NCBI GenBank assembly: GCA_947259115.1
Contig: CAMYKS010000010.1
Location: 199,385 to 263,384 of the forward strand
Length of the DNA: 64,000 bases
DNA from: an uncultured Desulfobulbaceae bacterium
Lineage (GTDB): Bacteria; Desulfobacterota; Desulfobulbia; Desulfobulbales; BM004
Direction of reading: 5' to 3'
The position numbers were made by a program, and so were the translations under genes. Shown piece by piece: positions 17,500-42,383 of this stretch; within the stretch, counting starts at the first letter, position 1, and each line of letters starts with the position of its first letter. The notes under the pieces are model-generated. The model saw only the letters and a list, made by a program, of their open reading frames with translations. It made no database searches and was not told the DNA's origin.

Positions 17500-17510
17500 G
17501 GGATAGGGTT

Positions 17511-17865
17511 ATCGGCATACAAAACTGCCGATGATTGCCACAAGGGGTTGAGGGAAAAAAATAGAAGTGTTGGAGTATTAGAAAAAATTTACTATAGTAT
17601 CACCCGTCGATTGCCTGCCGACCTTAGGACGATTTATAGTCTGCAAATCGGCTTCTCGGTTAGATTGACGATAATTTCTGCATGCTGACAATAAAAAACA
17701 ATGAAAAAAGAATGATGAAAATTTCTTCCCAGCACTCCAACACCCTGCTGCTCCACCCTTTTGTCCACTGAATATTTGTGGTTCCACTCAAATAAGCCCA
17801 TGCAACTTTTGACACCTTGGAACCTTGACCCCTTGTGCCAATCATCGGCAGTTTTGTATGCCGAT
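17511..17865. repeat. 355-bp element bounded by 38-bp near-perfect inverted repeats
   Basis: The left arm 17511-17548 and the right arm 17828-17865 are reverse complements over 38 bp with one mismatch (ATCGGCATACAAAACTGCCG... on the left). Nested inside is a second inverted pair, GTGTTGGAGT near 17567 and ACTCCAACAC near 17737. The interior has no gene. The right side carries the CCTTGACCCCTTG phrase typical of other gaps in this window. It exactly fills the lptD to DHH gap. Confidence 0.8.
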
Positions 17866-17886
17866 AAACCTTGAAACCTGAATACT

Positions 17887-33898: not shown

Positions 33899-33972
33899 GT
33901 TTTTGGGAGTGACTAAAGTTACAAGTTACAAGTGCCTATAGTGTTAAGTGCCTAAAGTGAGCTAAAGTTACA

Positions 33973-34362
33973 AGTGCCTAAAGTTACGAGTGCCTAAAGT
34001 TTAAAGTGAGCTAAAGTTTTTTTTAATGTGGCTCTAAAGAAAACTAAGCTAAAGGCACACTTTCACTCTTTGATCGGTCCATGGGTGCTGGATCGGAGTC
34101 TCCCTCTGGTCGTTTATACCCTGTTTTTTAGGATGCTTACCTTCCGCCTTCGCGGGAATGACATTGTAAAAAGACAGCGTCACTCCCGCGAAGGCGGGAG
34201 TCCAGTGAAGATGGCAGCTGAGTTTCCATAGAGCCACTATTTTTTAAAATAATTTTATATTTCAACTTCTGCTTATAATTAACCTGGTGGATATTTTATC
34301 AATACCTCAGGTTATAGTTTTTTTAACTTTAGGCACTTTAGGCACTCGTAACTTTAGGCACT
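33973..34362. repeat. Inverted phrase unit without a gene, between mltG and lon
   Basis: The left arm 33973-34000 and the right arm 34335-34362 are perfect reverse complements over 28 bp, built from GTGCCTAAAGT phrases. The arms share a 25-bp sequence with the arms of the four-helix-bundle unit (37996-38407). Further half-phrases extend outwards to 33911. Inside, a smaller inverted pair (GTGGCTCTA near 34027 and TAGAGCCAC near 34230) encloses a CGCCTTCGCGGGAATGAC-type dyad (34140-34205). No gene is seen. To the right, 34371-34490 has single-sided CCTTGACCCC phrases. Confidence 0.8.
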
Positions 34363-34493
34363 AAGAGCTTTCGCCTTCAGCCTTTAACCTTATAACCCTG
34401 AACCTCTGTGCCTTTGTCTCTCAGTGCCTTTGTGCCTTTGTTTTTAAGCTTTTCCCTTGACCCCTCGACCCCTTGAAACCTTGGCCCCTGTTC

Positions 34494-36899
34494 TCAGATC
34501 TTACACCCTCTCTTGCCCTTCTTCGTTTCCCTGAAGGCGACCTTTAGAATCTGGTCCATGTTTTTCACCGGGATGAACTCCATCTGCTCCCGGATGTCCT
34601 TGGGAATTTCCACCAGGTCCTTCTTGTTCTGCTCCGGGATAATAACCTTTTTGGTGCCGGAACGAAGGGCTGCAAGCGCCTTCTCCTTGAGGCCGCCGAT
34701 GGGAAGGACACGGCCCCGCAGGGTAATTTCACCGGTCATGGCCACATCCCAGGCCACCTTTTTCCTGGAAAGGGCTGAGTAGAGCGAAGTTGCCATGGTG
34801 ACTCCGGCAGAAGGGCCGTCCTTGGGAATGGCACCGGCCGGCACGTGAATATGGATATCCACCTCTTCAAAAAAATTCTCGGAGAGCTTCAGTTTATCCA
34901 TCCTGGACCTGCAGTAGCTCAAGGCCGCCTTGGCCGACTCCTGCATGACATCGCCAAGCTGGCCGGTAAGTATGAGACTGCCCTTGCCCTTCATAATGAT
35001 GGTTTCAACGTAGAGGATCTCGCCGCCCGTCTCTGTCCAGGCGAGCCCCGTAACCAGGCCGGGCTGGTCAATGGTCTCAATGTCACATTCCGGCTGGAAC
35101 TTGGGCGGGCCCAAATATTTATGCAGGGTCTGCCTGGAGATGGTATAAGGCCCTCTTGCCCCCTCGGCAATCTTTCTTGCCACCTTGCGGCATACCTTGC
35201 CGATCTCGCGCTCCAGATTCCGCAGGCCCGATTCCCTGGTATAATGGGAGATAATACGCTTAACTGTCACATCATCGAGCTTGATATGTTTTTCGGCAAT
35301 ACCGTTTTCTACAAGCTGCCTGGGCAGAAGATAGCGTTTGGCGATCTCGAGCTTTTCCTCCAAGGTATAGCCGGCCAGCCGGATGATTTCCATTCTGTCC
35401 AGCAGCGGCGACGGTATGGTGTCTGTAAGGTTGGCTGTGGTGATGAACATCACCTTGGATAGATCATAGGGGATGTTCATATAATGATCCGAAAAGGAAG
35501 AATTCTGCTCCGGATCAAGCACTTCCAGGAGGGCCGAGGAAGGATCTCCCCGGTAATCGGAGCCCACCTTATCTATCTCGTCCATCATAAAGACCGGGTT
35601 GTTGGCGCCGACAGTCTTCAAACCCTGAATGATACGCCCGGGCATGGCGCCGATATAGGTGCGCCTGTGGCCGCGGATCTCAGCCTCATCCCTCATGCCG
35701 CCCAGGGAAAGACGGTGGAATTTGCGGCCCAGGGCCCGGGCAATGGATTGGCCCAGCGAGGTCTTGCCGACACCGGGAGGGCCGACAAAGCAGAGGATCG
35801 GTCCCTTGGTCGACTTGTTCAGCTTGCGGACCGCCAGATACTCCAGTATCCTCTCCTTGATCTTCTCAAGGCCATAGTGGTCGGCATCAAGAACCTCTTT
35901 GGCAATCTTTAAGTCCAACCTGTCACGGCTGCCCCTGCTCCAGGGCACTTCGGTCAGCCAGTCCAGATAGGTCCGGATAATTCCAGCTTCTGAAGAATCG
36001 GGATGCATCATCTCCAAGCGCTTGAGCTGCTTGAGAGCCTCTTTTCTGGCATGGACCGGCATCCTGGCCTTACGGATCTTGCCCTGCAGCTCCTCGATTT
36101 CCTGAGCCCTGTCATCCACATCGCCCAATTCTTTTTTCAGGGCCTGCAGCTGTTCACGCAGATAATATTCCCGCTGCGAGCGCGTCATCTCCTCCTTGGC
36201 CTCGGTCTGGATCTTAGCCTGCATGGTGGACACCTCAAGCTCTTTGTTGAGATAATCCGCCACCAGTTTGAGCTTTTCCACCGGGTCAAAGCATTCAAGG
36301 ATAGCCTGAGCCTCAGGGATCTTCAAGCGCAGGTTGGAGGCAACCAGGTCCGCCAGACGGCCCGGGTCATCGATGTTATTCATGATCATAATGAGATCCG
36401 AGGAAAGAATGCCGCGTAGGGACATGATTTTTTCAGTCTGTTCACGCACCGTACGCATGAGCGCCTCAACCTCAACACTGATATCGGGCAGTTCCTGCTC
36501 ATCCACCACCATGACCTTTACTTTGAAAAACGGCTCCTTCTGCTGGAACTCCTGGATTTTTGCCTTGGTCAGGGCCTGCACCAGAACCTTGAGACGGCCG
36601 TCAGGCAGTTTCAGGGTGCGCATGATCATGCTCACCATACCTACATCATAAAGGTCTTTAGGTTCGGGATCCTCCTGGGTGGCATCCTTCTGGGTCAGTA
36701 GCACCAGGAGCTTATCCCTGGATAGGGCCTCATTGACAGCAGCCACCGATGACGCTCTGCCGACAAAAAGCGGTATAATCATAGAGTTGAAAACAACGAC
36801 ATCGCGTACCGCCATCAAAGGCAGTTCATCTGGTATCTCAATATCCTGCCTCTCTGCAAAATCATCAAGGTTGGCATGAATCGAATCATCAAAACCCAC
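34494..36899 (-). CDS. lon: ATP-dependent protease Lon
   Basis: The start is set at the GTG 36899, because AGGAGG lies 8 bp upstream. An upstream in-frame ATG (36971) without a good site would add 24 residues unlike the family. This gives 801 residues, normal for Lon. It is a hexameric AAA+ serine protease removing damaged and regulatory proteins. Order: N-terminal substrate domain (about 15-190), coiled coil, AAA+ module with Walker A GPPGVGKTS and sensor sequences, and the protease domain with catalytic Ser in KDGPSAGVTMATSL and Lys in GGLKEKALAALR. Between lon and the divergent beta-helix gene is a shared 255-bp promoter region. A phrase-repeat unit lies on its 3' side. Confidence 0.97.
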   Translation of the reverse strand: MGFDDSIHANLDDFAERQDIEIPDELPLMAVRDVVVFNSMIIPLFVGRASSVAAVNEALSRDKLLVLLTQKDATQEDPEPKDLYDVGMVSMIMRTLKLPDGRLKVLVQALTKAKIQEFQQKEPFFKVKVMVVDEQELPDISVEVEALMRTVREQTEKIMSLRGILSSDLIMIMNNIDDPGRLADLVASNLRLKIPEAQAILECFDPVEKLKLVADYLNKELEVSTMQAKIQTEAKEEMTRSQREYYLREQLQALKKELGDVDDRAQEIEELQGKIRKARMPVHARKEALKQLKRLEMMHPDSSEAGIIRTYLDWLTEVPWSRGSRDRLDLKIAKEVLDADHYGLEKIKERILEYLAVRKLNKSTKGPILCFVGPPGVGKTSLGQSIARALGRKFHRLSLGGMRDEAEIRGHRRTYIGAMPGRIIQGLKTVGANNPVFMMDEIDKVGSDYRGDPSSALLEVLDPEQNSSFSDHYMNIPYDLSKVMFITTANLTDTIPSPLLDRMEIIRLAGYTLEEKLEIAKRYLLPRQLVENGIAEKHIKLDDVTVKRIISHYTRESGLRNLEREIGKVCRKVARKIAEGARGPYTISRQTLHKYLGPPKFQPECDIETIDQPGLVTGLAWTETGGEILYVETIIMKGKGSLILTGQLGDVMQESAKAALSYCRSRMDKLKLSENFFEEVDIHIHVPAGAIPKDGPSAGVTMATSLYSALSRKKVAWDVAMTGEITLRGRVLPIGGLKEKALAALRSGTKKVIIPEQNKKDLVEIPKDIREQMEFIPVKNMDQILKVAFRETKKGKRGCKI

Positions 36900-37154
36900 G
36901 GGTTTATCCTCCTGTATAGAAAAAGTTTCCACCTGGAAACAGAGTGTCTGGAACTTCCGGCTGCCAAGCATTCCGGACTGTTGCCTGATATTAATTACTG
37001 CTATGCTGCTGTGAATCTAAACACTGGAGAGACTGAAGTCAAGCTTCGCATGCTTACCTCACTCCTGTGCGTTTTTTTGTTGCTTAAATGCGATATTCTT
37101 TTTTATGTAATCGGTCAACAGCTAAATATAAAAAAAACACTTAGGCCAGTAATT

Positions 37155-37955
37155 ATGCTTTCCGCACACTCTTTTTTTGACCTGTCTTCCTGTGAACACC
37201 CTGAACTCATGCGACCTGAAGAACAGGCATGGGACGCCCTGAAAAATCTGAAGCACTACCTTGGGGAGCAGCGCTATCATGAGTTGACCCCTCCACTTAT
37301 CCAGGACGGCGAGCCCGTTAAAAGAACCCTGGTGTATTACAACGGTTCCCTGCTGGAGGCCAGGGAGCTGAGAATTGAATTGGGCGATGCCACTAAGGGA
37401 GGCATCAAGGTTTTTCATGATGAAAACTTGCTGCTCGGGGCCAGTGTCATTATGGCCGGGGCCATTTTCCATGGCAGCCGGATCAGGATCGGCAAGGGGG
37501 TGCTGATTGAGCCGGGCGCCTATATCAAATCTCCGACCATAATCGGCGATCAGACTGAAGTGCGGCATGGCGCTTACATCAGGGGCAACTGTTTAATAGG
37601 CAGAAACTGTGTGGTGGGGCATGTTACAGAGGTCAAACACACCATTTTTCTGGATGGCGCCAAAGCCGGGCATTTTGCCTATCTGGGGGACTCCATTCTC
37701 GGCAACGGGGTCAACCTGGGGGCTGGGACCAAGCTGGCAAACCTGCGCTTCATCAAAGGAGACATCTCCATAACTACCCCGAACTCCACAATGGAGACCG
37801 GCCTGCGCAAACTGGGGGCCATACTGGGAGACCACGTACAGACAGGCTGCAATTCCGTCACTAATCCCGGCACATTTCTTGGAAAAAAATCCTTGGTCAT
37901 CCCTAATACCACCGTGCCATCAGGGTATCATCCTGACGGATCGCTGATCAGATAA
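37155..37955 (+). CDS. Left-handed beta-helix (hexapeptide) protein, GlmU-C/sugar acyltransferase-like
   Basis: The 266-residue protein begins at ATG 37155; the longer upstream frame has atypical residues and no ribosome site. After an alpha/beta leader (about 1-75; PEEQAWDALKNLKHYLGEQR), about 90-250 is a run of hexapeptide repeats (GSRIRIGKGVLIEPGAYIK, TIIGDQTEVRHGAYIRG, GRNCVVGHVTEV), forming a left-handed beta-helix. VNLGAGTKLANLR is typical of acetyl/acyltransferases that complete nucleotide sugars. No N-terminal pyrophosphorylase domain is present, so it is a stand-alone acyltransferase-like protein with unknown substrate. It lies divergent from lon, and the phrase unit with the four-helix gene starts 40 bp downstream. 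Confidence 0.75.
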   Translation: MLSAHSFFDLSSCEHPELMRPEEQAWDALKNLKHYLGEQRYHELTPPLIQDGEPVKRTLVYYNGSLLEARELRIELGDATKGGIKVFHDENLLLGASVIMAGAIFHGSRIRIGKGVLIEPGAYIKSPTIIGDQTEVRHGAYIRGNCLIGRNCVVGHVTEVKHTIFLDGAKAGHFAYLGDSILGNGVNLGAGTKLANLRFIKGDISITTPNSTMETGLRKLGAILGDHVQTGCNSVTNPGTFLGKKSLVIPNTTVPSGYHPDGSLIR

Positions 37956-37995
37956 AATAGGGGCCAAGGGGTCAAGGTAAAAGAACAAATGCCTA

Positions 37996-38407
37996 AAGTT
38001 ACGAGTGCCTAAAGTGCCTAAAGTTATTGAGAATAAAGAATTTTCCAAAAAGCTAGAAAAAAGGACTCGTCTTTTTGCGGTTGCTATCATTAAATTATCC
38101 ACATTACTTCCAGATACTCCGGAAGGAAAAGTTATCAGAAATCAAATTACCAAGTCAGGCACATCCATAGGAGCTAACTGCCGGGAAGCTAATCGTTCAC
38201 GAAGTAAGGCTGACTTCAAGAACAAGATAAAGATATGTGAAAGTGAAGCAAGCGAAACACAATACTGGCTGGAAGTAATTGTTGAGTCAAAAATGCTGAG
38301 TTGGGAAAAAGTCAAACAGGACCATCAAGAATGCAGTGAACTCTTGGCTTTATTTGCCGCCATCGCAAAAGGCTCTAAACTTTAGGCACTTTAGGCACTC
38401 GTAACTT
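37996..38407. repeat. Inverted-repeat unit carrying the four-helix-bundle gene
   Basis: The 30-bp left arm (37996-38025) and the right arm (38378-38407) are perfect reverse complements. The left arm reads AAGTTACGAGTGCCTAAAGT and continues. Arm phrases continue outwards (37989-37995 and GTAACTTG repeats to 38420). The gene 38005-38385 starts and ends inside the arms. Left of the unit is a CCTTGACC-type phrase (complement of 37960-37982). The arms match those of 33973-34362. Confidence 0.9.
38005..38385 (+). CDS. Four-helix-bundle protein (23S rRNA IVS protein / bAvd-like)
   Basis: The 126-residue protein is all helical and matches the four-helix-bundle family (TIGR02436 / 23S-rRNA-intervening-sequence protein, also related to the Avd accessory protein of diversity-generating retroelements). 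Seen are FSKKLEKRTRLFAVAIIKLS, IRNQITKSGTSIGANCREA, the signature SGTSIGANCREANRSRSKADF and a final ALFAAIAKGSKL. Members form pentameric barrels and bind nucleic acid; some are carried in 23S rRNA insertions. The GTG start and the TAG stop fall inside the left and right arms of a perfect 30-bp inverted repeat, so the repeats encode MPKVPKV and the final residues. There is no evident ribosome site. Its cellular role is unknown. Confidence 0.8.
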   Translation: MPKVPKVIENKEFSKKLEKRTRLFAVAIIKLSTLLPDTPEGKVIRNQITKSGTSIGANCREANRSRSKADFKNKIKICESEASETQYWLEVIVESKMLSWEKVKQDHQECSELLALFAAIAKGSKL

Positions 38408-38422
38408 GTAACTTGTAACTTC

Positions 38423-38713
38423 CTATTGCGCCCTGAGCCAATACTCGTTCAAGGCATAAAAAAAGCCGATGATGATCCCCAGGGTGCAGTAAATCCTGAC
38501 AATTCGGTCCCAGGGGAGACGCGCACCGGTGGAGCGCTGCATAAAGGAGACGACCAGGATGGTCAAGCCCACCACAAAGGGCGCTGTCATGAGGATCTGC
38601 ACCAGGGTTGACTTGACGGTTACAGCCAAACTTTCCGGGGTAAACCTGAGGTTGAACAGCAGATAGGCACAAATCACCAGGCTCAATGAAACATTTTTTT
38701 TAATTGCACTCAT
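38423..38713 (-). CDS. Small membrane protein, function unknown
   Basis: The 96-residue protein has hydrophobic segments at about 7-22, 37-55 and 72-88 (VTVKSTLVQILMTAPFVVGL; GIIIGFFYALNEYW), so probably three membrane helices. No domain is recognised. Its ATG lies directly against the start of the divergent gene 38714-39868 (CAT then ATG), leaving no space for a promoter between the two, so at least one start may be misplaced. The 3' end lies 38 bp from the four-helix unit. Confidence 0.55.
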   Translation of the reverse strand: MSAIKKNVSLSLVICAYLLFNLRFTPESLAVTVKSTLVQILMTAPFVVGLTILVVSFMQRSTGARLPWDRIVRIYCTLGIIIGFFYALNEYWLRAQ

Positions 38714-42059: not shown

Positions 42060-42066
42060 AGATAAA

Positions 42067-42329
42067 GGGTTCAAGGGGTCAAGGGGTCGAGGTTTCAAGG
42101 GGAGAAACAAAATTTAAAGGCACAAGATACAGGGTGCAAGGTACTTGACGCTTGGCACCGGGGAAAAAATCGATGTTATAAAAAAAATACTTGCAATTTT
42201 TACTTTTGCATTACAATTTTTTTGAACCCTTGAACCCTTGAACCCTTGAACCCTTGAACCCTTGAACCCTTGAACCCTTGAACCCTTCCTTGAACCCTTG
42301 AAACCTTGAAACCTTGAAACCTTGAAACC
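42067..42329. repeat. Inverted phrase unit with 8-bp tandem array upstream of hemE
   Basis: Eight perfect tandem copies of TTGAACCC (42222-42285), a TTCC break, one more copy and four copies of TTGAAACC (to 42329) lie 54 bp before hemE. About 120 bp to the left, 42067-42104 carries the opposite-strand phrases (GGGTTCAAGGGGTCAAGG), so the two arrays face each other. A partial R1 phrase (AACTTTAGCTCACTT, 42341-42355) lies between the array and hemE. No gene lies in this 324-bp gap. Confidence 0.9.
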
Positions 42330-42383
42330 AAAGAGTCTAAAACTTTAGCTCACTTATAACTTATTACTTGAGGACCGGTTTTC

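Follow-up and report, generated by a model that had tools for sequence, protein, structure and literature searches.

The window analysed here, i.e., the whole stretch of 64,000 nucleotides from an uncultured Desulfobulbaceae bacterium (contig CAMYKS010000010.1, positions 199,385 to 263,384), contains a small element of about 0.43 kb in which an inverted array of short words, a gene of the S23p (IVP) family, and a second inverted word array follow each other between protein genes. The locus is probably one copy of a free-standing mobile element that resembles the intervening sequences (IVSs) of 23S rRNA, in which S23p works together with its cognate word-hairpin ends and which has gene-less derivatives. 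The two inverted arms, 37996-38025 and 38378-38407, have a length of 30 nt each, enclose 352 nt, and are 100% complementary (30/30), which confirms their description as exact 30-bp reverse complements in the first-pass annotation, made from the letters alone. An exact 30-nt inverted repeat within 500 bp is expected by chance about 1e-11 times per 64 kb. The open reading frame (ORF) between the arms (38005-38385) has a GTG start, 126 aa, and a TAG stop. The element is composed of:

37987-38025, plus strand: left word array (AAATGCCTAAAGTTACGAGTGCCTAAAGTGCCTAAAGTT), of which 37996-38025 is the exact 30-nt arm
38005-38385, plus strand: S23p/IVP four-helix-bundle gene (PF05635, TIGR02436), 126 aa counted from GTG, with the family start position at ATT 38026
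38378-38421, plus strand: right word array (AACTTTAGGCACTTTAGGCACTCGTAACTTGTAACTTGTAACTT), with the exact arm at 38378-38407; it provides the TAG stop, and its outer end is next to the stop codon of the convergent gene 38423-38713

The window protein was matched by PF05635 with E=1e-19 and 71 bits (cut-off 33.8) and by TIGR02436 with E=5e-24 and 84.6 bits (cut-off 24), and its AlphaFold model is a four-helix bundle with a mean predicted local distance difference test (pLDDT) score of 92.5. Profile scores above the curated cut-offs and the four-helix-bundle fold, the two properties that define membership, thus place it in the S23p family, and the ORF is as the first-pass annotation had described it, with the GTG and the residues MPKVPKV in the left arm, the TAG in the right arm, and a four-helix product. 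The best structure matches of the model were the S23p structures 2RLD (template modelling score, TM, 0.91) and 2GSC (TM 0.85), by target length. A weaker match was obtained for Avd, a protein of diversity-generating retroelements (4DWL, TM 0.79, and 8UB7, TM 0.78, by target length), with E about 0.1, probability 1.00, and TM 0.68 by query and 0.79 by target. The protein is basic, with an isoelectric point of 9.5. The ratio of non-synonymous to synonymous substitution rates (dN/dS) had a median of 0.08 across 333 pairs and a maximum not above 0.28; the S23p protein is under strong purifying selection.

In the 88 loci compared, the codon that corresponds to ATT 38026 is ATG in 66, GTG in 7, and TTG in 2 (e.g., AAAGTTATGGATAATAAAG in L041, compared with AAAGTTATTGAGAATAAAG in the window). 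Because the ATG of the relatives aligns with this ATT and the arm-encoded MPKVPKV is the sole segment of the model with pLDDT below 50, the conserved start codon of the family is placed beside the arm, just on its inner side, and the GTG within the arm is a quirk of the window copy, which starts at either the ATT or the arm-internal GTG. The inner edges of the arms usually lie about 19 nt upstream of the start and 12 nt downstream of the stop (medians), and among the 95 loci whose arms are clear, only 5 have start and stop both within arms. The position of the start codon within the arm, part of the first-pass description, is incidental.

The S23p loci used for comparison were obtained in three ways, namely, I) 80 relatives found by scanning genome contigs, from Desulfobacterota, Planctomycetota (Scalindua, Phycisphaerae), Nitrospirota, Bacteroidota, and other groups; II) 30 loci from a phylum sample of 297 genomes; and III) 11 plasmid loci from Nostoc, Planktothrix, Anabaena, Gloeocapsa, Dolichospermum, Chlorohelix, Bernardetia, and Treponema. 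Many of the genomes compared are incomplete metagenome-assembled genomes, and the loci are not independent. The inverted-repeat score between flanks had a median of 36 for the 125 S23p loci with both flanks; the median was 17 in the controls, which were 2287 random intervals and 231 other ORFs from these loci. The 99th percentile of the random intervals was exceeded by 82% of the S23p loci, with a p-value of 2e-68 that is nominal because the loci are related. In the large majority of the copies studied, the S23p gene turned out to form the centre of a small insertable element with mirror-image word strings as its ends.

Each arm is an array of words of 7-10 nt (AGT-GCCT-AA and variants); the arms are inverted and exact in the window, as first described, but they are made up of words and do not form one unique 30-mer. 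The words in the window arms are AGTGCCTAA and AGTTACG, and those at other places include AGTGACTAA, AGTGAGCTAA, AGTGAACTAA, and AGTGATCTAA. Among the loci of the window-type clade (protein at least 55% identical to the window protein), words of the type AGT...CTAAA are present in both arms in inverted sense in 68 of 87, versus 0 of 36 loci of other S23p types, and in the opposite sense in 7 of 87. Across loci, protein identity and arm similarity are correlated (Spearman rho 0.73; permutation maximum 0.21), and this holds outside the window-type clade as well (rho 0.33; permutation maximum 0.18), where the best match of a left arm among all right arms was its own right arm in 26 of 32 loci. 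The word vocabulary thus follows the protein clade across phyla. One close relative, L107 (Melioribacteraceae), has nearly perfect 51-nt inverted arms of quite different sequence (AAGTTGCCTTGCTGAAAGCATCCCTTTGGGAAAAGTTAAAAGA) and is an exception to the word rule.

The arms accompany this protein clade from phylum to phylum, and other S23p clades have either no such arms or different ones; by this comparison, the arms belong to the element. The alternative that they are functionless products of slippage and palindrome correction, decaying around an ordinary small gene, would explain the variable number and order of words, as slippage would produce, and the match between left and right arm within a copy, as template-switch correction would produce; it is nonetheless very improbable, given a vocabulary that is conserved across phyla, tied to the clade, and fixed in polarity (68 versus 7 loci opposite), and given that the remaining ORFs at these loci have no arms of this kind.

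The genome of the window itself (4.0 Mb, 73 contigs) was searched for word pairs. The pattern CTAAAGT-N(3-7)-TAAAGT gave 38 matches and its reversal gave 2; the matches are spread over about 26 places that are located between long ORFs. The majority of these places are gene-less and consist of a left array, a short loop, and an inverted right array (e.g., L163, L169, L170, and L171), so that the search for the arm with and without its ORF, as suggested in the first-pass annotation, found arms genome-wide and mostly without the gene. Seven S23p genes are present in this genome; besides the window copy, C45 also has AGT words, and other copies are enclosed by different inverted words, namely, GGGTTCAAGGG (L009), GGCACAGAGGCAC (L010, L011), and GGTCAGCGGTCAGC (L012). 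In the phylum sample, close S23p copies were found in 7 of 21 genomes rich in AGT words versus 3 of 276 others (odds ratio 45, p=3e-7). Two genomes of this sample, G165 and G185, have 59-67 AGT-word matches and no S23p of the window-type clade; arm copies therefore persist or spread lacking a matching intact gene.

The surroundings of the element in the window include the following features:

33953-34386, no strand assigned: second AGT-word element, with aligned arms 33953-34007 and 34326-34386 and a loop without an S23p gene
36876-37955, plus strand: upstream neighbour, a left-handed-beta-helix sugar nucleotidyltransferase-like gene (named from its sequence), kept at the site in relatives
37960-37977, plus strand: what remains of a left arm of a different word family (GGGGCCAAGGGGTCAAGG), located just outside the element
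38423-38713, minus strand: downstream neighbour, a small convergent gene, kept at the site in relatives

Five genomes of the same genus have kept both neighbours with 125-160 bp between them and no S23p gene, and several of them carry word hairpins of other families at this site; the related species G004 has no S23p gene here and a hairpin of the GGGGCCAAGGGGTCAAGG word family. Empty sites were also found in Algibacter (L259), where the stop codon of the upstream gene directly abuts the ATG of the downstream gene without any hairpin, and in Nostoc. Between the codons that abut in Algibacter, Flavivirga (L248) has arms, gene, and arms of about 0.5 kb. Three Flavobacteriaceae genomes in which this first site is gene-free have the gene at a second shared site, and the protein of L113, located at the first site, clusters with the second-site proteins (support 100/99), as would be expected if the element had moved or been exchanged. 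In Nostoc C052, an element with perfect TAATTCG arms is present on plasmid pC052_A and absent from pC052_D, the two being about 95% identical around the site; about 220 bp of the target are missing on the occupied side. Other occupied/empty pairs involve cas2-cas1 and helicase-methylase operons. The S23p elements L205 and L208 (Nostoc and Anabaena plasmids) lie between cas2 and cas1, which are adjacent in the empty homologs L221 and L222, and L204, L211, L212, and L214 lie within DISARM/BREX-like helicase-methylase or related operons.

The hairpins of other families at the site of the window element in congeners could also mean that the S23p gene inserts into pre-existing repeat hairpins as a target preference, the arms being intergenic repeats of the host. 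A GG-word left arm just outside the window element and the nested orientation (14:4) of the AGT element where both word families meet would fit such a preference. We consider it unlikely, as the same vocabulary accompanies the same protein clade in Desulfobacterota, Planctomycetota, Nitrospirota, and Bacteroidota, other S23p copies of one genome have other words, and the empty Algibacter site has no hairpin.

The free-standing mobile element remains the preferred reading. Its standing as an element, its clade-specific ends, the dispersed gene-less derivatives, its presence or absence at orthologous sites, and the selection on the protein are borne out by sequence comparison, and the first-pass view of a free-standing, intergenic, probably mobile relative of the 23S IVS is well supported by the five congeners without the element, the gene-less arms throughout the genome, and clean occupied/empty pairs of the same protein type. 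Loci with and without the insertion could be aligned, as that annotation had proposed, and neither of the outcomes it had named as contrary (armless orthologs in all distant relatives, or arms unique to this locus without empty sites) was found.

Several observations weigh against mobility of this kind. In 13 Flavobacteriaceae genomes, the S23p gene has remained at a single orthologous site, which implies that movement is slow. No obvious target-site duplication was seen in the alignments of the Nostoc and Flavobacteriaceae sites, and target DNA was replaced or lost at two of the Nostoc insertions. S23p was not found in three AGT-word-rich genomes of the phylum sample. The element encodes no transposase, nuclease, or polymerase, S23p being its only ORF, and no partner enzyme acting in trans emerged from the genomes compared; RVT_1 was not matched in 42 of the 83 S23p-bearing genomes, and in the source genome its sole match is one broken fragment on another contig, with no reverse transcriptase adjacent to the element. 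Binding of S23p to the words we infer only from their co-inheritance. The description of the locus as a selfish unit is unsupported, because of the site shared by the 13 genomes and the strong purifying selection.

The same selection and the conserved site in many Flavobacteriaceae, together with arms that are nearly always intergenic, would be compatible with a domesticated host regulator, i.e., S23p binding word hairpins in the untranslated regions of its own and many other mRNAs, with the arm pairs as regulon and mainly vertical spread. Arm positions that differ between congeners, the patchy distribution of S23p (83 of 297 genomes), the plasmid copies, and the insertions into defence operons make such a regulator quite unlikely.

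Candidate partners for mobilisation were also considered. A reverse transcriptase as required partner was rejected on account of the 42 S23p genomes lacking an RVT_1 match; RVT_1 is present in 18 of 21 word-rich genomes versus 96 of 276 others, an association that is probably confounded with genome size. Y1 transposases, present in 212 of 297 genomes, are too common to discriminate; the source genome has nine matches, and the element itself has no Y1 transposase. A phage origin was rejected, as only two weak phage matches were obtained.

The closest known arrangement is the S23p-coding 23S rRNA IVS of Leptospira and Coxiella, which likewise has an S23p ORF within complementary stem-forming ends and a size of about 0.43 kb; the Coxiella IVS has 428 nt and a 28-bp stem (PMC4990558). 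In rRNA helices, such IVSs have taken the place of small tetraloops, and they are cut by RNase III (PMC4990558), and this replacement is a further point in favour of insertion into pre-existing hairpins. However, the window element lies between its upstream protein gene and a convergent neighbour, not in a 23S rRNA helix, a defining feature of an IVS, and its ends are arrays of short words with gene-less copies dispersed through the genome. The closest way of working is that of REPINs, doublets of repetitive extragenic palindromic (REP) sequences, and REP-associated tyrosine transposases (RAYTs), i.e., extragenic, dispersed inverted doublets that form hairpins, with several sequence families per genome that are each tied to a particular protein (PMC3116915). 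Here, by contrast, the linked protein is a four-helix bundle and the defining Y1 transposase is not in the element, and the ends are word arrays instead of single REP palindromes. The window S23p shares an Avd-like fold with diversity-generating retroelements, but has no adjacent reverse transcriptase or template/variable repeat, and the lack of an element-encoded transposase sets the element apart from insertion sequences and miniature inverted-repeat transposable elements. Intergenic heptamer repeats are known as the cyanobacterial short tandemly repeated repetitive (STRR) sequences and the G-rich repeats GGGGATT in Nostoc and GGGAATC in Xanthomonas (PMC4692102). These are also intergenic tandem 7-mers of varying length, some of which were found here as S23p arms, although they were reported as plain tandem repeats with no associated gene. 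TAATTCG and AATCCCC form the arms of S23p elements on plasmids of Nostoc, Dolichospermum, and Planktothrix; AATCCCC, the GGGGATT of the literature, occurs in the arms of the Planktothrix element L204. The study of MacGregor (2015) on TAACTGA repeats makes no mention of S23 or a four-helix family (PMC4679880). A link between word arrays and S23p was not found in the literature searched (open-access PubMed Central), in which the Coxiella IVS study was the sole relevant paper on the protein family.

The predicted fold of the element RNA puts the arms in a stem, with a minimum free energy of -119 kcal/mol, and the RNA hairpin remains a prediction of the folding model. In the proposed mechanism, S23p, a basic four-helix bundle with an Avd-like fold whose solved relatives are pentameric rings, would bind the word hairpin cognate to it, either in RNA form or as extruded or single-stranded DNA. 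Bound S23p would then help to copy the hairpin unit to new sites or to join it there, using host or borrowed enzymes, and gene-less copies may be mobilised in trans, as is thought for REPINs by RAYTs. Residence would do no harm, as the element sits between genes and its transcript would form a hairpin, which RNase III could excise in the manner known from rRNA IVSs.

To our knowledge, S23p/IVP proteins have no known function, even though their structures have been solved for two decades and they are widely annotated, and we know of no accepted origin for the intergenic tandem repeats of 7-9 nt words in bacteria. Word arrays that serve as paired ends of S23p elements, with a vocabulary tied to the clade, join these two problems, connect a protein family with several types of bacterial repeat DNA that are all without an explanation, and make both problems testable through a simple binding and mobility assay. 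More tentatively, and with somewhat less than even confidence, S23p may be the trans-acting factor of widespread nuclease-less mobile elements with clade-specific word ends, many of the interspersed bacterial heptamer and octamer repeats (cyanobacterial STRRs, G-rich heptamers) being gene-less derivatives and the 23S IVSs being members that landed in rRNA.

GG words gave 31 matches in the window, versus 1 for the reversed sequence, and form hairpins at 17.5, 18.9, and 42.1 kb; the one at 42065-42330 is very long and gene-less, with AAGGGTTCAAGGGGTCAAGG... and CTTGAACCC in many repeats. Where AGT and GG words meet in the source genome (27 AGT-word places, L144-L173 and others), the GG array lies mostly outside with matching polarity (14 versus 4) and never inside, and often one arm per family remains, resulting in mixed hairpins. 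At L025, L028, L154, L164, and L167 of this genome, AGT words are interrupted by a recurring inserted hairpin, GCATTTATGCCCCC-TTGCGGGGTAC. At several places, including window positions 17505-17871 and L009, word arms contain a small nested palindrome, TCGGCATACAAAACTGCCGA and then GATTGCCACAAGG or a similar sequence; L018 has a comparable TTTGTCGTCATACGAAACGACGA. The arms of L213 (plasmid of Nostoc sp. UHCC 0870) contain a palindromic insert, CGCAATGGACTAACGTCCCGCTCCGCTAACGCAATTCGC, which we take to resemble the cyanobacterial small dispersed repeats.
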